Shown: in pieces, positions 8,323-38,425 of the stretch | How the letters are laid out: each line of letters starts with the position of its first letter | Position numbering within the stretch: position 1 is the first letter of the stretch | NCBI RefSeq assembly: GCF_010093065.1 | Contig: NZ_CP048113.1 | Coordinates: forward strand, 2,666,001 to 2,730,000 | From: Chitinophaga agri | GTDB lineage: Bacteria > Bacteroidota > Bacteroidia > Chitinophagales > Chitinophagaceae | Reading direction: 5' to 3' | Length of the DNA: 64,000 nucleotides | Position numbers and translations under genes: made by a program | Notes under the pieces: generated by a model | The model's input: the letters and a program-made list of their open reading frames with translations, nothing else | The model's database searches: none | Told to the model about the DNA's origin: nothing

Positions 8323-10731
8323 ATGTTCAAGTATTACTATAAGATCGCTACACGTAACCTCTGGAGGAACAAGGCTTTCTCTGCCATTACCGTTATGGGA
8401 CTGGCTATCGGACTGGCCACCTGTCTGTTGATCGCGTTGTTCGTGACAGATGAACTAAAATATGATGCCTATATCGAAAAAGCCGACAGGACCTACCGTA
8501 TCAATGCGGACTTCCTGGTGAACGGAAGTGTTTTCAGGGAACGGTATTCCCCTGCGTTACTGGGGGGCGTACTGCAACAGGATTTTCCCCAGGTGGAAAA
8601 GTATGTAAGGCTGCTCCAACATGACCATATACTGGTACAAAAGGGCGATCAGACCCTGATCGAGGATGGCATCTGTTTTGCCGACTCAACCGTGTTTGAT
8701 ATGTTCAGTCTGCAGATGATAGCAGGTAACCCCGTAACCGCCCTGCGTGCACCTAAGTCAATTGTCCTCTCAGAGAGTATGGCGATGAAATACTTCAACA
8801 GCATTGACATTGTCGGTAAATCTATACATACAGATAATATCTACGACTATACGATCACGGGAGTGATCAAAGATGTTCCTTCCCAGGCACATATCCACTT
8901 TCACTTTTTAAAAGCGATGGCGGAGCAGGAGTACAGCAGAGAGCCACAATGGATGGCGGATAACTTTACCACCTACGTACGTTTACGCCCCGGCGCCACA
9001 CAGGAACAACTGAATGGTTACCTCAGGATAGCCACCAAAAAGTATATGGAGGACCAGCTGCGAAAGCTCACGGGGAGTGGTCTTGCTGACCTGGAAAAGA
9101 AAGGTGGTCATTTCGGATATACCACCATTCCTGTCAGAAAGATACATCTTTATTCAGACCTGGTCAGTGAGCAGGAACCATCCGGGAATATACAGTATAT
9201 CTATATTTTCATCATTACGGCTATTATCATCCTGATGATCGCCTGCGTGAACTTCATGAACCTGTCCACTGCCCGGTCAGCCGGCAGGGCGAAAGAAGTA
9301 GGACTGCGTAAGGTAATGGGTTCTCAGCGGAGCAGCCTGATCATACAGTTCCTGGCAGAATCTGTTATTACCAGCTGCTGTGCTATGCTGATCGCTATTG
9401 TCATCGCCGCATTATTACTCCCCTATATGAACGACCTGTCAGGAAAATCCCTGCGTATCACCGTGACTTCATTAACCTGGCTGCTGCCGCTGTTATTACT
9501 GATCGTAGTGGTAGTAGGATTGCTGGCAGGCAGTTATCCGGCGTTCTTCCTCTCTTCATTCGAACCGGTGAAAGTTCTTAAAGGAAAATTATCTTCCGGC
9601 TTTAAAAGCAGCTGGTTGCGGAACAGTCTGGTCACCTTCCAGTTTGTCACCGCCATATTGCTCATTGTGGGTACACTGGTCATCTATCATCAACTTAGCT
9701 ACATCCGGAACAAGCAACTGGGCTATGATCGTCAGCAGGTGCTGGTATTGGGCAACACACAGTCTTTGTGGATACACGCCAAAGGATTTCGCGATGACGT
9801 ACTGAAGCTTCCGGGCGTCACGGCAGGTACGATGACAAACACGTTGCCTACCGAAGCGAATACGAATACGAATGTATACTCAAAGGATGCCGCCAGAAGT
9901 GAAGGACAGGTGATGGGGATTAACGAGTGGTACATTGACACCGATTATTTTGCTACGCTGGGCATAAAGATGGCAAGCGGAAGGAATTTTTCACCGGATA
10001 TGCCAACAGATACCAATGCGGTGATCATCAATGAAACAGCGGCACGGCTGCTGGGGTATACTGATTTCACCGGCAAGTACCTGTATAGAGGTGACCAGAA
10101 AATGCCGGTAATAGGTATTGTCAAAGATTTCAATGCCGGTTCTTTACGGAATAAGATCCCACCTGCTATCTTCACATTGGGTGAATTCACTGCAAGGATG
10201 GCTTTCCGCGTCAATACCACGGACCTTCAGCAAACTATCAGTAAAATAGAACAGTTGTACCACGCGAGACCCATGATGCAGGGGCAACCGTTCACCTATT
10301 CATTCATGGATGATGATTTTAACAGGTTATACCAGTCAGAAGAGCGTACCGGAAAGATCTTCATCTCTTTTGCTATACTGGCCATTGTGATCGCCTCCCT
10401 GGGTGTGTTTGGACTGATCACCTATGCAGCGGAGCAGCGTACCAAGGAGATAGGCATCCGGAAAGTAATGGGGGCGTCTGTATCCAGTATTGTGGCGATG
10501 CTTTCGGCCGACTTTATCAAACTGATCGCACTGGCAACGGTGATAGCCGTGCCACTGGCATGGCTGCTGATGAATAAATGGCTGGAGAACTTCGCCTACA
10601 GGATCAATATCAGCTGGGTGGTATTTGTACTGTCTATATTGCTCATGGTCATCGTAACACTGGCCACGATCAGCATAAAAGCCATCAGGGCTGCACTGGT
10701 CAATCCTATCAAGAGTTTACGTTCTGAATAA
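8323..10731 (+). CDS. ABC transporter permease, MacB/FtsX type
   Basis: An 802-residue permease. It opens with the membrane anchor found in this Bacteroidota group (FKYYYKIATRNLWRNKAFSAITVMGLAIGLA), followed by a periplasmic MacB_PCD domain (about 50-260). FtsX segments lie around 290-420, a second periplasmic domain at about 455-670 and a last FtsX set at about 680-795. EVGLRKVMGSQRSSL and EIGIRKVMGASVSSI are the two coupling-helix motifs, so one chain carries both permease halves. No ATPase gene is adjacent, so it must borrow one. The upstream region has two CGGACA direct repeats. The cargo is unknown; such proteins are tied to mechanotransmission or peptide and drug export. Confidence 0.85.
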   Translation: MFKYYYKIATRNLWRNKAFSAITVMGLAIGLATCLLIALFVTDELKYDAYIEKADRTYRINADFLVNGSVFRERYSPALLGGVLQQDFPQVEKYVRLLQHDHILVQKGDQTLIEDGICFADSTVFDMFSLQMIAGNPVTALRAPKSIVLSESMAMKYFNSIDIVGKSIHTDNIYDYTITGVIKDVPSQAHIHFHFLKAMAEQEYSREPQWMADNFTTYVRLRPGATQEQLNGYLRIATKKYMEDQLRKLTGSGLADLEKKGGHFGYTTIPVRKIHLYSDLVSEQEPSGNIQYIYIFIITAIIILMIACVNFMNLSTARSAGRAKEVGLRKVMGSQRSSLIIQFLAESVITSCCAMLIAIVIAALLLPYMNDLSGKSLRITVTSLTWLLPLLLLIVVVVGLLAGSYPAFFLSSFEPVKVLKGKLSSGFKSSWLRNSLVTFQFVTAILLIVGTLVIYHQLSYIRNKQLGYDRQQVLVLGNTQSLWIHAKGFRDDVLKLPGVTAGTMTNTLPTEANTNTNVYSKDAARSEGQVMGINEWYIDTDYFATLGIKMASGRNFSPDMPTDTNAVIINETAARLLGYTDFTGKYLYRGDQKMPVIGIVKDFNAGSLRNKIPPAIFTLGEFTARMAFRVNTTDLQQTISKIEQLYHARPMMQGQPFTYSFMDDDFNRLYQSEERTGKIFISFAILAIVIASLGVFGLITYAAEQRTKEIGIRKVMGASVSSIVAMLSADFIKLIALATVIAVPLAWLLMNKWLENFAYRINISWVVFVLSILLMVIVTLATISIKAIRAALVNPIKSLRSE

Positions 10732-29722: not shown

Positions 29723-30055
29723 ATGGGCACATCAAAGACAGATCTATTTACAAAAGAACAGAATGAAATGGCTGCTATGGCGAAAGCGCTGGCGCACCCG
29801 GCACGTATTGCCATACTACAGTACCTTGTCAGGAAGAATGCCTGTGTATGCGGCGATCTGGTGGAGGAACTGGGGCTGGCACAGGCGACTACTTCACAGC
29901 ACTTAAAAGAGCTGAAGCAGGCAGGTATTATACAAGGGACGATCGAAGGAGTGAGTGTTTGCTATTGTATCAATCCGGATGTATGGCAACAGTATAAGGC
30001 GCTGTTCAACAGCTTCTTCCAGGACGTGAACCTGATGGGTAATAAGTGTTGTTGA
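29723..30055 (+). CDS. arsR: ArsR-family arsenite-responsive repressor
   Basis: A 110-residue winged helix-turn-helix repressor. The DNA-recognition helix lies at about 50-66 (LGLAQATTSQHLKELKQAG). Cys41 and Cys43 in ACVCGDLVEEL are the vicinal arsenite ligands of the classic ArsR site, and an extra Cys pair ends the protein (NKCC). It likely represses its own operon and the following genes until arsenite binds. The gene is followed after 57 nt by arsM. A palindrome just upstream (29698-29713) is a good autoregulatory operator. A second in-frame Met lies at residue 16; the first is used. Confidence 0.9.
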   Translation: MGTSKTDLFTKEQNEMAAMAKALAHPARIAILQYLVRKNACVCGDLVEELGLAQATTSQHLKELKQAGIIQGTIEGVSVCYCINPDVWQQYKALFNSFFQDVNLMGNKCC

Positions 30056-30073
30056 TTTTTTTTGCTTTTATTC

Positions 30074-30089
30074 ATCGTAATATTACAAT
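30074..30089. promoter_or_regulatory. Candidate ArsR operator 2
   Basis: ATCGTAATATTACAAT shares 14 of 16 positions with operator 1. It lies in the short gap between arsR and arsM, 24 nt before the arsM ATG, and suggests an internal, separately repressed promoter. Confidence 0.55.
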
Positions 30090-30112
30090 AATACACTTTA
30101 ATCTTACATGTT

Positions 30113-30955
30113 ATGTCTACTGACCAGCAAATAAAAGAGATGGTAAGGCAGAAGTACAGTGAAATTGCCTTACAGGACAAGACAGAGAATCAGGCGTCCT
30201 GCTGTGGCGCCGGTGGTTGCTCTACGGAGGTGTATAATATCATGAGTGATGATTATACGACGATGCAGGGGTACACTGAAGATGCGGACCTGGGACTTGG
30301 ATGCGGATTGCCTACGCAATTTGCACAGATAAAGAAGGGCAATACCGTTATTGATCTGGGTAGTGGTGCAGGAAACGATTGTTTTATTGCCCGTCATGAA
30401 ACGGGCGACAATGGTAAGGTGATCGGCATTGACTTTACACCTGCGATGATTGAAAAAGCAAGGGCGAATGCAGATAAGCTGGGGTATAATAATGTGGAGT
30501 TCAGACAGGGAGATATTGAAAAAATGCCGGTAACGGCTAACACAGCTGATGTTATTGTCAGCAACTGTGTGCTGAACCTGGTACCTAATAAGGACGGCGT
30601 ATTTAAGGAGATCTACCGGGTATTGAAGCCAGGAGGACATTTCAGCATCTCTGATATCGTATTGGAAGGAACACTACCTGCTGCCGTTCAGCAGGCGGCT
30701 GAGATGTATGCCGGCTGTGTATCAGGCGCAATACAACAGGCGGAATATCTGGGTCTCATCACCAGCAATGGCTTTACTAGTGTAACCGTACAAAAAAAGA
30801 AGGCCATTATGGTCCCGGATGATATATTGTCTGCTTACCTCTCTCCTGAAGAAATCAGTCAGTTCAGGAACAGCGGGACAGGCATTTACAGTATTACCGT
30901 ATATGCAGAAAAGCCGGCAGAGCAATCCTGCTGCGCACCCGGATGCTGCGATTAA
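30113..30955 (+). CDS. arsM: Arsenite S-adenosylmethionine methyltransferase
   Basis: A 280-residue methyltransferase of the ArsM family, which turns arsenite into methylated, partly volatile species. Residues around 75-85 hold the SAM motif VIDLGSGAGNDCFIAR, then GIDFTPAMIEKAR. The arsenite-binding Cys set is visible: CCGAGGC near residue 30, GCGLP near 63, NCVLNL near 146 and YAGCVSGA near 203. The C-terminus has an extra Cys-rich tail, EQSCCAPGCCD. The gene lies between arsR and arsC with 24 nt to the next gene. The tail may aid metal capture. Confidence 0.92.
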   Translation: MSTDQQIKEMVRQKYSEIALQDKTENQASCCGAGGCSTEVYNIMSDDYTTMQGYTEDADLGLGCGLPTQFAQIKKGNTVIDLGSGAGNDCFIARHETGDNGKVIGIDFTPAMIEKARANADKLGYNNVEFRQGDIEKMPVTANTADVIVSNCVLNLVPNKDGVFKEIYRVLKPGGHFSISDIVLEGTLPAAVQQAAEMYAGCVSGAIQQAEYLGLITSNGFTSVTVQKKKAIMVPDDILSAYLSPEEISQFRNSGTGIYSITVYAEKPAEQSCCAPGCCD

Positions 30956-30979
30956 ACAATAGAACCACAATTCAGCTAT

Positions 30980-31396
30980 ATGAAGAAAATTCTGGTACTC
31001 TGTACCGGCAACAGTTGTCGTAGCCAGATCGCGGAAGGCTACCTGAGATATTTCGCACAGGAGAAGGCAGTAATATACAGTGCCGGTGTAGAGACACATG
31101 GCGTGAATCCCCGTGCGATCGCTACCATGCGTGAAGACGGCATTGATATCTCCGCACATACATCCAATAATATCACCGAGTACAGGGATGTTGATTTTGA
31201 CTATGTGATCACCGTGTGCGATAATGCAAAAGAGCGTTGTCCGTATTTCCCCGGCAATGCGGAGAAGTTCCATTATAACTTCCCGGACCCCGCAAAAGCA
31301 ACAGGTACTGAAGCCGAGATCATGGAGCAGTTCAGGGTTGTCCGCGAACAGATCAAACAGTATTCAAAAGACTTTATAGAACATCATTTTTCCTGA
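30980..31396 (+). CDS. arsC: Arsenate reductase, thioredoxin-coupled (LMW phosphatase fold)
   Basis: A 138-residue enzyme reducing arsenate to arsenite. The phosphatase P-loop CTGNSCRS (Cys8 to Arg14) binds arsenate. The redox pair Cys80 and Cys87 in [13 protein letters not shown] identifies the thioredoxin-dependent staphylococcal type rather than the glutaredoxin type. [16 protein letters not shown] and EQIK complete the family. It starts 24 nt after arsM and ends 2 nt before acr3, so it is in the same transcript and feeds arsenite to both. Confidence 0.94.
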
Positions 31397-31398
31397 TC

Positions 31399-32478
31399 AT
31401 GAGCGATCAAAATTGTCATCCGGCCGGTGGAAGGAAAAAACTTGGATATATAGACCGCTATCTCACATTATGGATACTACTGGCCATGGTGATCGGTATC
31501 GGCATCAGCTGGTTCCTTCCTGATTCATCTGCCTTCATTACTTCCTTTTCTTCAGGTAGCACCAACTTACCCTTAGCGATAGGTTTGATCCTGATGATGT
31601 ATCCACCGCTCGCGAAAGTAAAATATGAAGAAATCGGAAAAGTATTCCGCAATGTGAAGGTACTCGGCATTTCATTGTTACTGAACTGGATAATAGGCCC
31701 GGTGCTGATGTTCCTGCTCGCTATCATTTTCCTGCATGACTATCCGGCGTATATGACCGGTGTTATTCTTATCGGGCTGGCACGCTGCATTGCAATGGTC
31801 ATCGTATGGAACGAACTTGCAGACGGCAACCGGGAGTATGCCGCAGGACTGGTAGCATTGAACAGTATATTCCAGGTATTTCTATATAGTGTATATGCCT
31901 ATGTTTTTTTAGACATTTTACCCCCCCTGTTCGGGTACACAGGAATTTCAATCGGTGTAACACTCAAAGAGATTGCTGAAAGTGTGCTGATCTACCTGGG
32001 TATTCCTTTTGCAGCAGGCATCATCAGCCGGTATCTGTTATTAAAGATCAGGGGGGAGCAATGGTTCCGGGAGGTATTTATTCCTTTCATTTCTCCCGTC
32101 ACCTTAATAGCCCTGCTTTTTACCATTATAGTCATGTTCAGCCTTAAAGGAGCCGTCATTGTAGCATTACCAATGGATGTATTACGTATTGCCTTACCGC
32201 TGGTCATCTACTTTGCCATTATGTTCTTCATTAGTTTTTTTGCCGGGAAGGCGGTTGGCGCCGATTATTCTCAGAGTGCAGCGATCTCGTTCACTGCTGC
32301 CGGTAACAATTTTGAACTTGCGATCGCCGTGGCCGTAGGTGTGTTCGGGATCAGTTCCGGTCAGGCATTGGCGGGTGTGATCGGCCCCTTAGTGGAAGTA
32401 CCTGCGCTTATAGCCCTGGTAAAGGTGGCATTCATATTACGCCGGAAATACTATACAAAGCCGGCTTTAGATCAGTAG
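31399..32478 (+). CDS. acr3: Acr3-family arsenite efflux permease
   Basis: A 359-residue membrane protein with about ten hydrophobic segments. The family core is present: [18 protein letters not shown], holding the conserved Cys needed by Acr3 for arsenite transport, and [20 protein letters not shown] in the last third. It exports arsenite using the proton gradient. Starting 2 nt after arsC, it is translationally coupled and closes the operon. A G/C-rich hairpin follows at 32566-32588. Confidence 0.93.
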
Positions 32479-34663: not shown

Positions 34664-34704
34664 ACCACCCATTAGTACCTGTCATACAGGTGCCAATGGG
34701 TGGT
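34664..34704. terminator. Bidirectional terminator hairpin
   Basis: Arms 34664-34682 and 34686-34704 pair over 19 positions with two mismatch or wobble pairs. It separates the SDR gene from the convergent hxsC gene and touches the hxsC stop codon. Confidence 0.75.
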
Positions 34705-35828
34705 CAGTTAAAAGCAAGTATACCCCTGCTATGCATTTTCATACCCGAGGCAAAAAAGCCGCCACATTTCTCCTGCATCACACATCTGCTGCATTCCTCA
34801 TGATAGACGTTCTTCCAGTCGGAGATAGATCTTCTGGTATACTCCCACAACTCACCAGGTGTGACACATAACTGTGCATTGTAAACAGATACATTCATCC
34901 CCATGTCAGCCAGATAAAGTACGGCTGCTGACAATTCCTGCTGATAGTCCTCGGGATCGATCCACAATTTCCGGATATTATGAGGCGTATACCCCTGGTG
35001 TTCCAGTCCCATAAAGGCGACATGCTCCGCAAATGGAAGATTCTTATAAATGAATTTTGCCAGCTTGACCAGTCGCGGAATAGTTTGCTGATGCAGCACT
35101 ATTCTCAGCTCCACCCTTACATTTTTCTTCGCGAGGTTATACAGTCCCCTGACTGTTTGATGAAAGGCATCTTTTGCCTGTACAATGTAGTCATGCTGCG
35201 CAGGATAATCTGAGTAAACCGGTATCCCAAACATAAGCCGGGAATAGTTCATCTCTCCCATCCGGTCAGCCATGCCCTGCCAGGCAAATGATCGTCCGTT
35301 AGTAAGGCAGTGTACTTCTGTATCCGGCAGCTCCTGCTGGATCTGTGTCAGTAATTTAAAGAACCGGTCGCCCAGTAAGGTAGGCTCTCCTCCAGTGATA
35401 CCCAGTTCCTGACAATCCTTCGGAATAAGCGGGATAGTCTGGCTATGCAGCTGATAGAGATAATCTGTGTCATCCCTGTCCCTCGGAGGTTGAGAACACA
35501 TCAGGCAATTACTGTTACATCTTTCTGTAAACAGCAAAAAGTTATGTGCAGAGTTCACCCTATAGGCGGTGTTCACCACACCATCGGAATGCGCCACAAC
35601 AATATCCCCTTCATGCAGATGACTGGTATCCGCAATGGAAAAGACACCGGGAGAGGAATCAGCATACAGGGGAGGCAGCCCGGACAGCACTGCTTTATAC
35701 CTCCTCATCGTCTCATGACTGTACGCATCACTGATCAGTATTTCCGCGTTGCCGGTGGCGGAGAAAGTCACCCGTCCGACTACAGGACGGTCTATACCAT
35801 GTGGAATACCTTTTGTTTTCAGTAACAT
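34704..35828 (-). CDS. hxsC: His-Xaa-Ser system radical SAM maturase HxsC
   Basis: A 374-residue radical SAM enzyme, last gene of the hxs operon. The cluster motif is CNSNCLMC (Cys104, Cys108, Cys111; the CX3CX2C that binds the SAM-cleaving 4Fe-4S cluster). ITGGEPTL is the glycine-rich SAM loop. Near the C-terminus CSRCVMQEKC (Cys346, Cys349, Cys355) is a candidate auxiliary cluster site. The N-terminal 95 residues are specific to the family. With HxsB it is predicted to modify the HxS repeats of HxsA. It starts within the hxsB stop (TGATG overlap), so translation is coupled. The exact reaction is unknown. Confidence 0.88.
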   Translation of the reverse strand: MLLKTKGIPHGIDRPVVGRVTFSATGNAEILISDAYSHETMRRYKAVLSGLPPLYADSSPGVFSIADTSHLHEGDIVVAHSDGVVNTAYRVNSAHNFLLFTERCNSNCLMCSQPPRDRDDTDYLYQLHSQTIPLIPKDCQELGITGGEPTLLGDRFFKLLTQIQQELPDTEVHCLTNGRSFAWQGMADRMGEMNYSRLMFGIPVYSDYPAQHDYIVQAKDAFHQTVRGLYNLAKKNVRVELRIVLHQQTIPRLVKLAKFIYKNLPFAEHVAFMGLEHQGYTPHNIRKLWIDPEDYQQELSAAVLYLADMGMNVSVYNAQLCVTPGELWEYTRRSISDWKNVYHEECSRCVMQEKCGGFFASGMKMHSRGILAFN

Positions 35829-37330
35829 CAGCTTTTACCTGTTATCCAGCTTCTAAATACTTTTTCAATCCTTTTATCCTGTTCCATCAAGGTGATGAGA
35901 TGTTCGATGATCTGCATATTCCGCTGACAGAATGAATTGTCCGGCCTGTAGCCGTACATATCGCCCTGTGTGGCATAGTTGAAGACAGGATCTGCCCCGC
36001 AATAGCCCTGAAAGGCGCATGCTGAACATCCCGGGAGGGACTCGTTCACCATGACATCTGTCAGTGCCTGTGTTTTCTCTCCGTAAAAGACCTCCCTGTA
36101 AGAAGTCTCTCCCAATATGCCCAGTCTGAAAGTAAAGTCTTTCATTTCGGCCAGCATCCTGGATTCGTCAGATGCATATATTGCACCGTCATAGTTGAAT
36201 ACGATCACGCTGTTGATTAACCCGGCGGGCGATTGCAGATCAACATATCCCACAGGGAATGGCGTTAGTAGTTTCTTCAGTATGATCGCAGCATAATCTT
36301 CCCGGATAAAGTATCCGTTCAGATTATGTTCAATAATTTTATCCAACGCTGTTTTATAAAACTCCAGGAAGCGGCCTGTCTCATACCTGTTCCGGTTAGC
36401 ACTCATTGTGGCAAAGCCATAGGGGCTTATCGGACGAAGAAAGATATTACGGAATCCCAAAGCCACATATTCGTCTACGATCTCCACAGGATAGTCGAGG
36501 GAGCGTCTTGTATTGGTGGTCAGTGCCGATACGTTATCTTCTCCCAACACTTCCCTGCATCTGCGGATACCATCAACGGCCAGCTGATAACTACTGGCAT
36601 TGGGCTTATGCCTGTTCTTATCATGAATGAAAGCGGGACCATCCAGGGACGTTGAGATCAGTATACTGTTTTCCTTACAATAGGCCAGCATCTCATCTGT
36701 GAGCGGTGCCAGGTTGGTACAGATCACATAGGTCAGCTGCTTCCCATGCTTTACCGCAGCTAGTTTGGCTTTTTCAACAGCATATACAATATTATCGAAT
36801 GCCAGCAGCGCTTCCCCACCCTGAAACTCCATTGTCAGATTCCGGCCTGGAGACTGCATCATCATGTCTATCCCTGCATCAATATGAGCGCGGCTCATGT
36901 CATATTTATTCCTGTCACTGGTTACCCGCGATACCTGGCAATAATGACAGGTATGTTCACATCTCAGACTGATAACAAAAATATGCAGTGAGGTAAAATG
37001 GTCGAGAAAGGATTTCTTAGTCCTGTAGCGGGTAGCGATCACTTCCAGCAGATCAGGGACCGGCTGTTCAGTAATAAAGAACCCGGCAACGAGATCTTCA
37101 TACAGTACCTTATCTTCCGGCTGCGTGCTGTCTATTCTCCGTTCAATAATGCGTGCACATGTGCCGGCAGGCAGCACCATGTAATCGCCGATCTCATTGA
37201 CAAGGATCTCTCTTTCATCCGGCAGCCGGTGAAAGCGGAATGGTAATAATGTATAGCCGGTATCAGCAGTATAGTGATGGCTGTCTTTGAATTTTCGGGT
37301 CTGCCGTTCCTGCAGGAACACTGTTTCCAT
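35828..37330 (-). CDS. hxsB: His-Xaa-Ser system radical SAM maturase HxsB
   Basis: A 500-residue radical SAM enzyme. CEHTCHYC at Cys124, Cys128 and Cys131 is the CX3CX2C cluster motif. MEFQGGEALLAF is the SAM-binding segment. A SPASM-like C-terminal region has Cys435, Cys438, Cys444 and Cys468 (CSACAFQGYC, then SFC), as in peptide-modifying enzymes. The N-terminal 110 residues may form a peptide-recognition domain. It begins 2 nt after hxsD and overlaps hxsC by 1 nt. The likely substrate is the repeat region of HxsA; the bond formed is unknown. Confidence 0.88.
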   Translation of the reverse strand: METVFLQERQTRKFKDSHHYTADTGYTLLPFRFHRLPDEREILVNEIGDYMVLPAGTCARIIERRIDSTQPEDKVLYEDLVAGFFITEQPVPDLLEVIATRYRTKKSFLDHFTSLHIFVISLRCEHTCHYCQVSRVTSDRNKYDMSRAHIDAGIDMMMQSPGRNLTMEFQGGEALLAFDNIVYAVEKAKLAAVKHGKQLTYVICTNLAPLTDEMLAYCKENSILISTSLDGPAFIHDKNRHKPNASSYQLAVDGIRRCREVLGEDNVSALTTNTRRSLDYPVEIVDEYVALGFRNIFLRPISPYGFATMSANRNRYETGRFLEFYKTALDKIIEHNLNGYFIREDYAAIILKKLLTPFPVGYVDLQSPAGLINSVIVFNYDGAIYASDESRMLAEMKDFTFRLGILGETSYREVFYGEKTQALTDVMVNESLPGCSACAFQGYCGADPVFNYATQGDMYGYRPDNSFCQRNMQIIEHLITLMEQDKRIEKVFRSWITGKS

Positions 37331-37332
37331 AG

Positions 37333-37701
37333 TTAAATACTTTGAGGATCAAATCCAACGGGGTCAGTCACACCTGATGCAGGCAGGTCCTCCTGGTCAT
37401 AATATGCAAATGCTTTAGCGATCAGTAGTTCTCTGATCGTCTTTGTTTCGTCCGACACGATCTGCCGTAATTTAAAATCCACGAGATCTCTCCTCAGCCT
37501 GGAGATGACGTAGTCCCAGTCTGTAGTAGCGGACGCCTCTTTCGGGGCTATCGTACACTTTAACTGAACCGTGCTGACTTTCGTTATTTCCACCTCGTAG
37601 TTATTAGTATACCAATAGAGGCATTTAAACAATACGGGTTCAGGATATACCTCCAGATCGACAATGGCGGTCAGGCGATTGTCCATTACTTGCAGCTCCA
37701 T
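37333..37701 (-). CDS. hxsD: His-Xaa-Ser system protein HxsD
   Basis: A 122-residue soluble protein between hxsA and hxsB, spaced by 1 and 2 nt. No signal peptide, Cys motif or catalytic site is visible. It has an N-terminal beta-like part (AIVDLEVYPEPVLFKCLYWYTNNYEVEI), then a helix-rich part (WDYVISRLRRDLVDFKLRQIVSDETKTIRELLIAKAFAYYD). In size and position it matches HxsD, an obligatory small partner of these cassettes. A role as peptide-binding or delivery partner for the radical SAM enzymes, similar to RRE-like proteins, is inference. Confidence 0.8.
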   Translation of the reverse strand: MELQVMDNRLTAIVDLEVYPEPVLFKCLYWYTNNYEVEITKVSTVQLKCTIAPKEASATTDWDYVISRLRRDLVDFKLRQIVSDETKTIRELLIAKAFAYYDQEDLPASGVTDPVGFDPQSI

Positions 37702-37702
37702 T

Positions 37703-38425
37703 TTATTTATTTCTTAAAGCGTTGAGTGTTTTTGCATCCACAATTCCATTGGCCACCAGGTTATGCTGCTTCTGGAACCGGATCACGTTCTGCTTCGTCT
37801 GGTTTTTAAACAACCCTGTCACAGGCATATCGCTGCTAAAACGGGCGAGCAGTTGCTGTAGCTGCTTCACATCATTCCCCTGACATCCCCATTTCAATAT
37901 GCGGTCTCCCAGTTGCAGCTCCGCTGTTTCCTGCCCATATTCAACGGTCGCATGATTTGTCATTGCGTCTACTTTAGGCGTATACACCAAAGGACGACGG
38001 GCTGCACCGCTATTTAAAATAGTTGTTTTTCGTGCTGATGATCCGGAACCGGCTGTACTACGAGAGGGCTGGGTATTATAGCTTGCTGAAGAAGAGGAAG
38101 AAGATGAGGATGATGAGTAACTCCCCGAGCTGTAGGAAGAGGAATAATGTGATGAATGCGAGCGGTGTGATGAATGTGACCGGTGCGAGCTATGAGAGCG
38201 GTGCATCAATACAAAACTGTTTTCCGGATTTGATACATTCAGCTTTAACACCAGTTTGGGCTTTAGTACATTCTTATGCATCTCAACGCCTATGTTCTTA
38301 TCACTTTCCATTTCATAGTGATGATTCGCGGTCGCGTTTGTGCTGCTGAGGGTACTGAATGCAGCTGTTATGACAGCGAGGCTTTTTCTGATAAGGGTGT
38401 TGAAACCGAATTTTTCTTTATTCAT
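37703..38425 (-). CDS. hxsA: His-Xaa-Ser repeat protein HxsA (predicted substrate)
   Basis: A 240-residue exported protein. The ATG at 38425 is used because the upstream ATG at 38458 falls inside a -7 box. Residues 11-33 form a signal peptide (LIRKSLAVITAAFSTLSSTNATA). Residues 75-95 are seven contiguous His-Xaa-Ser tripeptides, with Xaa Arg or Ser alternating six times, then Tyr. Residues 94-118 are almost all Ser and Tyr. The C-terminal domain (about 175-240) is PG_binding_1 (GCQGNDVKQLQQLLARF, VTGLFKNQTKQNVIRFQKQH). The protein should hold a modified repeat in the envelope, bound to peptidoglycan. The repeat is the expected target of HxsB and HxsC. It is first in the operon. Confidence 0.88.
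   Translation of the reverse strand: MNKEKFGFNTLIRKSLAVITAAFSTLSSTNATANHHYEMESDKNIGVEMHKNVLKPKLVLKLNVSNPENSFVLMHRSHSSHRSHSSHRSHSSHYSSSYSSGSYSSSSSSSSSSASYNTQPSRSTAGSGSSARKTTILNSGAARRPLVYTPKVDAMTNHATVEYGQETAELQLGDRILKWGCQGNDVKQLQQLLARFSSDMPVTGLFKNQTKQNVIRFQKQHNLVANGIVDAKTLNALRNK
38141..38203 (-). repeat. Tandem His-Xaa-Ser coding repeat
   Basis: Seven contiguous 9-nt codon units in hxsA encode HRS, HSS, HRS, HSS, HRS, HSS and HYS. The DNA of the units is not identical, so the peptide repeat appears to be held by selection rather than by recent duplication. Confidence 0.8.

Follow-up and report, generated by a model that had tools for sequence, protein, structure and literature searches.

An intact hxsA-D-B-C operon of the sporadic, mobile His-Xaa-Ser system in Chitinophaga agri

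The window, a 64,000-nucleotide stretch of the chromosome of Chitinophaga agri (single-contig genome, 7.97 Mb), carries an intact hxsA-D-B-C operon on its minus strand at positions 34704-38425. This cassette is another member of the His-Xaa-Ser (Hxs) system, TIGR03976-TIGR03979, reportedly described by Haft and Basu and known by name for years from genome data, with which it shares the grouping of hxsA, D, B and C, a substrate built on a His-Xaa-Ser (HxS) repeat and the pairing of radical S-adenosylmethionine (SAM) enzymes. The description of that system appears as reference 10 in PMC9062424, where maturation by HxsB and HxsC is called putative; in the literature searched, a scope outside which most subscription journals lie, we found no report of the chemistry of the product or of its role. 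A sequence-only reading of the window had proposed a complete cassette of four tightly packed genes that encode an exported-looking substrate with seven contiguous HxS tripeptides and two different radical SAM enzymes, both with a CX3CX2C motif and additional C-terminal cysteine clusters. The open reading frames bear out this picture in full, from the spacers of 1 and 2 nt and the TGATG overlap that follows them to the four further cysteines of each enzyme, although export is judged by eye. Coordinates are collected in Table 1.

Against the NCBIfam models, HxsB (579.2 bits, TIGR03978 cut-off 370), HxsC (379.8 bits, TIGR03977 cut-off 267.9) and HxsD (68.6 bits, TIGR03976 cut-off 50) all pass, and the scores of both enzymes, far above their own cut-offs, refute the possibility raised in the earlier reading that they belong to other radical SAM families. 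HxsA differs in this respect from the described system: it reaches 56.0 bits against the TIGR03979 cut-off of 121.65, and 24.5 against the cut-off of 48 of the HxsA2 model, so that its name rests on the repeat, a conserved segment and the operon. Other long Bacteroidota HxsA proteins likewise stay below the TIGR03979 cut-off (L117, 61.3; L068, 65.8; L069, 72.5 bits), while those of L073 (162.8), L091 (230.6) and L092 (224.8 bits) exceed it. Since the long Bacteroidota form escapes the family models and carries a generic name, appearing as no more than "peptidoglycan-binding domain-containing protein" in both annotated plasmid records consulted, it is easily overlooked.

Table 1. Features of the hxs cassette, in window coordinates
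Feature	Position	Strand	Remarks
hxsA	37703..38425	-	240 aa from ATG; repeat substrate; open reading frame, TIGR03979 56.0 bits, homologues with HxS runs
HxsA signal-like N-terminus, residues 1-33	38327..38425	-	basic start, hydrophobic stretch, then Ala-Thr-Ala
HxsA conserved segment, residues 54-74	38204..38266	-	directly precedes the repeats; possible recognition sequence
Seven contiguous HxS triplets, HxsA residues 75-95	38141..38203	-	HRS-HSS-HRS-HSS-HRS-HSS-HYS
PG_binding_1 domain, HxsA residues 182-237	37715..37882	-	PF01471, 57.3 bits, cut-off 23
hxsD	37333..37701	-	122 aa; small partner protein; TIGR03976 68.6 bits; model mean pLDDT (predicted local distance difference test) 88.4
hxsB	35828..37330	-	500 aa; radical SAM maturase; TIGR03978 579.2 bits
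HxsB residues 29-95, probable leader-recognition element	37046..37246	-	three strands then helices in model; inside CteB-aligned part
HxsB CX3CX2C, C124 C128 C131	36938..36961	-	invariant in 44/44 alignment rows
HxsB D388, aligned with Asp277 of anSMEcpe	36167..36169	-	invariant in 44/44 rows
HxsB auxiliary-cluster cysteines C435 C438 C444 C468	35927..36028	-	invariant in 16/16 rows; 44/44 in second alignment
hxsC	34704..35828	-	374 aa; second radical SAM maturase; TIGR03977 379.8 bits
HxsC CX3CX2C, C104 C108 C111	35496..35519	-	invariant in 16/16 rows
HxsC auxiliary-cluster cysteines C321 C346 C349 C355	34764..34868	-	invariant in 16/16 rows

The HxS repeat is not accidental, because runs of five to eight contiguous triplets occur in all 37 loci compared (five in 12 loci, six in 8, seven in 13 and eight in 4) and all six Ser codons are used in them (TCN 205, AGY 26; His is CAT 158 times and CAC 73 times). 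Selection acts on the protein sequence. Its middle residue varies: over 231 triplets, Ser was found 116 times, Arg 68, Tyr 27, Ala 8, Thr 6 and others 6 times, including one Cys. When residues 61-150 of the window's HxsA were shuffled 20,000 times, the longest HxS run obtained was four triplets, once. The set of 37 loci excludes copies and near-copies (L001, L002-L004, L009, L074, L076-L079, L081, L082 and L084), the truncated L040, and L010 and L144, in which the HxsB-like enzyme lies under the cut-off; no run of three or more triplets was found in L010. Five of the 37 (L083, L085-L088) are near-identical Escherichia coli copies, and the loci are therefore not 37 independent cases. A run of at least three triplets was also present in all of the best 120 of 512 homologues from a protein search, which favours proteins that share the HxS words.

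All 14 Chitinophaga loci, the window among them, have upstream of the run a segment of the form KP(K/Q)L(V/T/I)L(K/S)LN..(N/D)P..S(F/L)V(L/I/V)M that stops at the first His. Signal-like starts, the position of hxsA and tail lengths were read for 21 of the 37 loci, again with the window included. The best 12-residue Kyte-Doolittle mean at the N-terminus of the window's HxsA is 1.79, and signal-like starts in the 20 other loci look similar by eye. Tail lengths divide these proteins into short forms that end 3-5 residues past the run (L005-L008, L071, L072, L075, L089, L090) or 15 residues past it (L070), and long forms that continue for 128-155 residues (window, L039, L068, L069, L073, L080, L083, L085-L088). 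Short forms have no room for a wall domain, which is thus not universal. While the cassette, the exported-looking substrate and the open chemistry of the sequence-only interpretation stand, its view of cell-wall binding as key to function finds no support, given such forms (for example L005, L006, L007, L071, L072 and L075). The position of the substrate gene also varies, with hxsA first in 14 of the 21 loci and behind hxsC in 7, the latter order being found in Aeromonas and Rhizobium records as well. The window's HxsA contains no Cys, and a Cys before the end of the run was seen in only 1 of the best 120 of the 512 homologues; in L120, one of 13 loci, an apparent Cys upstream of the run precedes the first Met of that frame.

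Comparison of HxsB with characterized enzymes narrows the chemistry that may be expected. The sulfatase maturase anSMEcpe (4k36-4k39) matches HxsB from residue 114 on only, an alignment in which the AuxII-type cysteines are kept, as is an Asp (D388) at the position of Asp277. The four positions of the AuxI cysteines of anSME are occupied by other residues, with no Cys at any of them in HxsB alignments of 44 and 16 rows, and a SPASM enzyme with two auxiliary clusters was rejected on this count. The substrate motif of anSME also differs from the HxS run. CteB, the SCIFF thioether maturase (5wgg, 5why), carries a recognition element and acts on Cys, which HxsA lacks. Its alignment with HxsB starts at residue 29, and the HxsB model has strands at residues 31-35, 40-45 and 50-54 followed by helices at 57-62 and 71-82; judging from this model, the HxsB N-terminus is a probable leader-recognition element. 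The PapB family of ranthipeptide maturases (NF047865) is the second-best NCBIfam match of HxsB (2.8e-28), at 99.1 bits against a cut-off of 340, and the thioether chemistry of PapB requires Cys. A thioether (sactipeptide or ranthipeptide) maturase is an unlikely candidate, as the substrate core in the window's HxsA lacks Cys. The cyclophane formers YhhB, GrrM/OscB, XyeB and FxsB are related radical SAM/SPASM enzymes (3e-18 to 1.7e-7 against HxsB), but HxsB lies far under every one of their cut-offs.

An enzyme just under the HxsB cut-off (361.9 against 370 bits), found in genome G157 of the phylum sample, may illuminate this cysteine pattern. At its locus (L144 7170-11271; G157:C8) it adjoins a second radical SAM protein, for which HxsC4 is the best match (117.5 bits, cut-off 500), together with a 294-aa protein and a 158-aa candidate precursor that has no NCBIfam match and whose tail contains His, Ser and Cys. 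By eye, the G157 enzyme has Cys in SPCG, YPCDE and CGIC at places where HxsB has none. If this reading holds, loss of the AuxI-type cysteines accompanied the loss of Cys from the substrate.

Hxs cassettes are sporadic and mobile, as emerged from the search for similar cassettes and their context to which the sequence-only reading had pointed, and which gave no clear excess of defence genes over controls on plasmids and in Chitinophaga. Counting the C. agri genome each time, an HxsB over the cut-off is encoded in 14 of 79 genomes of the genus, 3 of 98 of the family and 1 of 395 of the phylum sample, where it was found in the C. agri genome alone. A scan of genome contigs returned 7 loci, and two scans of viral collections returned 0 and then 7. 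By tblastn at 1e-30, 411 of 72,556 plasmid records match, 341 of them over at least 80% of HxsB; 317 are from Klebsiella and 327 are typed as conjugative. Phage records rarely match (2 of 50,697 at 1e-20). With a Klebsiella cassette as query, 153 of 5426 E. coli genomes match, in 138 cases covering 80% or more of it, and every place is chromosomal; enterobacterial-type cassettes sit in prophage and island cargo. The Hxs cassettes of a Leptospira plasmid (L070), a Leptospira phage (L074) and a viral contig (L076) encode HxsB proteins with 60-61% identity to the window's, an indication of transfer between phyla. PMC8446631 lists the four hxs genes for a set of Pseudomonas aeruginosa strains, among genes that also include those of conjugative elements and phages.

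Flanking genes are rarely common to the 14 Chitinophaga cassettes. The window shares four genes on one side with L117 and one distant pair (47%) with L124; otherwise two genes are shared by L125 and L130, two by L121 and L128, and one by L121 and L122. The hxs-less genome G514 matches L117 on both sides without L117 6019-9624 and retains the last part of hxsC, so that loss has occurred at this site, which is not an empty site predating gain. The deletion scar in G514 (L118, about 8896-9071) lies where G548 has its hxs genes, and the right flank of the window matches there too.

We consider it reasonably probable that the cassette is a working modification system in which HxsA is recognised by HxsB, its core is modified by HxsB and HxsC in the cytosol, perhaps by linking His to Ser, and the product is exported. 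HxsA would be synthesised with a Sec-type signal, the conserved recognition segment and its core of seven triplets; the recognition-like element at the N-terminus of HxsB would hold the segment in the cytosol with HxsD as an adaptor, and the two enzymes, each with a SAM-cleaving 4Fe-4S cluster and one auxiliary cluster, would act along the core. Recognition by HxsB, the part given to HxsD, export, maturation ahead of it and the order of these steps are what we infer. Modified HxsA would then be exported, with long forms, the window's included, held at the peptidoglycan, and the cassette as a whole would be an accessory envelope trait won and lost with mobile DNA. Because Cys is nearly absent from HxsA, thioethers are unlikely, and chemistry on His and Ser remains. 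Within it we favour a link, repeated over the run, between the imidazole of each His and the beta-carbon of the Ser in its own triplet, since neither His nor Ser varies and the two lie at positions i and i+2, the spacing of three-residue cyclophanes, and since cyclophane-forming maturases are among the relatives of HxsB. This intra-triplet bond is a guess, held with clearly less than even confidence. Bolder still, and in our opinion rather unlikely, is the idea that HxsB and HxsC staple every triplet into an unbroken His-Ser ladder, an encoded rigid rod fixed to the peptidoglycan, which if true would be a new kind of envelope polymer moved between phyla by mobile elements. Hxs is in any case a widespread paired radical SAM system, and the present work supplies leads that can be tested. 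The substrate has boundaries (segment, core and optional wall domain); HxsB lacks AuxI-type cysteines, its substrate is almost free of Cys, and its N-terminus probably binds the leader; a relative offers a natural deletion; and some cassettes occur in hosts that are easy to grow.

Several points weigh against His-Ser linkage by such a system. By sequence the cyclophane formers are more distant from HxsB than are the thioether-forming PapB (2.8e-28) and the sulfatase maturase (1.7e-20), the need for two enzymes is left unexplained, and no analysis here reveals a product; export of HxsA was judged by eye and from a hydropathy mean, and with no Foldseek match for HxsD at E 0.001 or better (from a model of mean pLDDT 88.4) the term adaptor is a guess. 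A reading of HxsD as a recognition element was likewise neither favoured nor discounted by these comparisons. The Asp retained at the Asp277 position favours oxidation of Ser, the main rival to cross-linking, in which HxsB would act like anSME on the Ser of each triplet, to formylglycine or a further oxidised state, and HxsC would act second, leaving reactive carbonyls beside imidazoles along the run. We regard this as possible but not likely, given that HxsB has other residues where anSME has its four AuxI cysteines, that the sulfatase motif is absent from the run and that the invariant His is left unexplained. Were the run unmodified, a His at every third residue might serve as a metal site while the enzymes had another target, and arsenic resistance (ars)-like genes do lie 2.2 kb from the window's cassette. 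Yet all 37 loci encode an HxS run within the stretch retrieved, adjoining the enzymes where inspected, and the ars-like genes seem unrelated to the cassette, because no counterpart of at least 40% identity lies in the compared flanks of the other 13 Chitinophaga cassettes; a metal site is accordingly a very improbable reading. As for the genes themselves (window 29723-32478), their translations resemble ArsR, a methyltransferase, ArsC and a permease, a likely arsenic cluster identified by reading only. Decay of the cassette into a non-functional remnant, of which the 3' end of hxsC left at the same site in G514 shows that losses happen, is hardly credible for the window, where the four genes are open and tightly packed and retain the invariant residues checked.

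What the trait does for its host is harder to judge, and an occasionally useful envelope trait is the most that can be said. The cassette might guard the host of its mobile element from phages or rival elements, for instance as an envelope barrier to DNA entry. In two viral-collection contigs (L077 3833-7699 and L080 5246-8955), hxsA is followed immediately, on its own strand, by the Gabija genes GajA and GajB, which in L080 belong to other subfamilies; in the E. coli island L083 the cassette lies between Pycsar and Lamassu genes; L087 is annotated with ABC-three-component genes and L088 with a KwaB-like gene; and contractile-tail prophage genes flank L085 and L079. In the six E. coli loci read, ssrA adjoins L086, L087 and L088 and a tRNA-Ile gene adjoins L083. 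The tmRNA locus is defence hotspot 9 in PMC10121019, and PMC10686908 names hxsDBCA among the putative cargo of a prophage in Salmonella Typhi. These E. coli contexts lacked a control and are six of 153 places, and where controls were taken they show no clear excess of defence genes, for which reason we keep defence as a rival that we think doubtful and do not claim it. In the flanks on ten plasmids, names pointing to defence or toxin-antitoxin functions were borne by 18 of 151 genes, compared with 12 of 165 control genes, a difference that is not significant (Fisher p 0.18), and by record the counts were 7 of 10 (L068, L069, L072, L075, L089, L090 and L091, with none in L071, L092 and L093) against 6 of 10. 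The keyword list and the 60-kb offset were fixed before the controls were taken, and counts were made by hand from tables. Among the controls, one gene named "antirestriction" and one named "Abi family" were left uncounted, and two stretches had a shorter length, of 13.5 and 6.8 kb. In Chitinophaga about 4 of 112 flanking proteins matched PADLOC at 1e-20, as did about 4 of 101 control proteins: the flanks gave two mad3 matches, one exonuclease effector and 14 RmrA models of one member each, taken as one protein, and the controls four single matches. The window's own four proteins match no PADLOC model at 0.01 save for weak viperin hits of both enzymes, and according to PMC6537148 the Hxs locus of Vibrio parahaemolyticus alternates at one site with a galactitol system, not with a defence system.

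Other neighbours were noted at hxs loci. A DUF6119/TIGR04141 gene, of a family termed "sporadically distributed", lies behind hxsA in L081 (4230-5837), L083 (17411-18505), L086 (14954-16561), L087 (15390-17202) and L088 (15230-16836), and is broken by annotation in L083, L087 and L088. In Puia dinghuensis a GmrSD-type restriction gene stands directly behind hxsC (L008 10614-12683). Thermonuclease-family genes were seen near hxs on three unrelated plasmids (L071 12033-12569, L075 11588-12304 and L091 628-1161), perhaps by chance.

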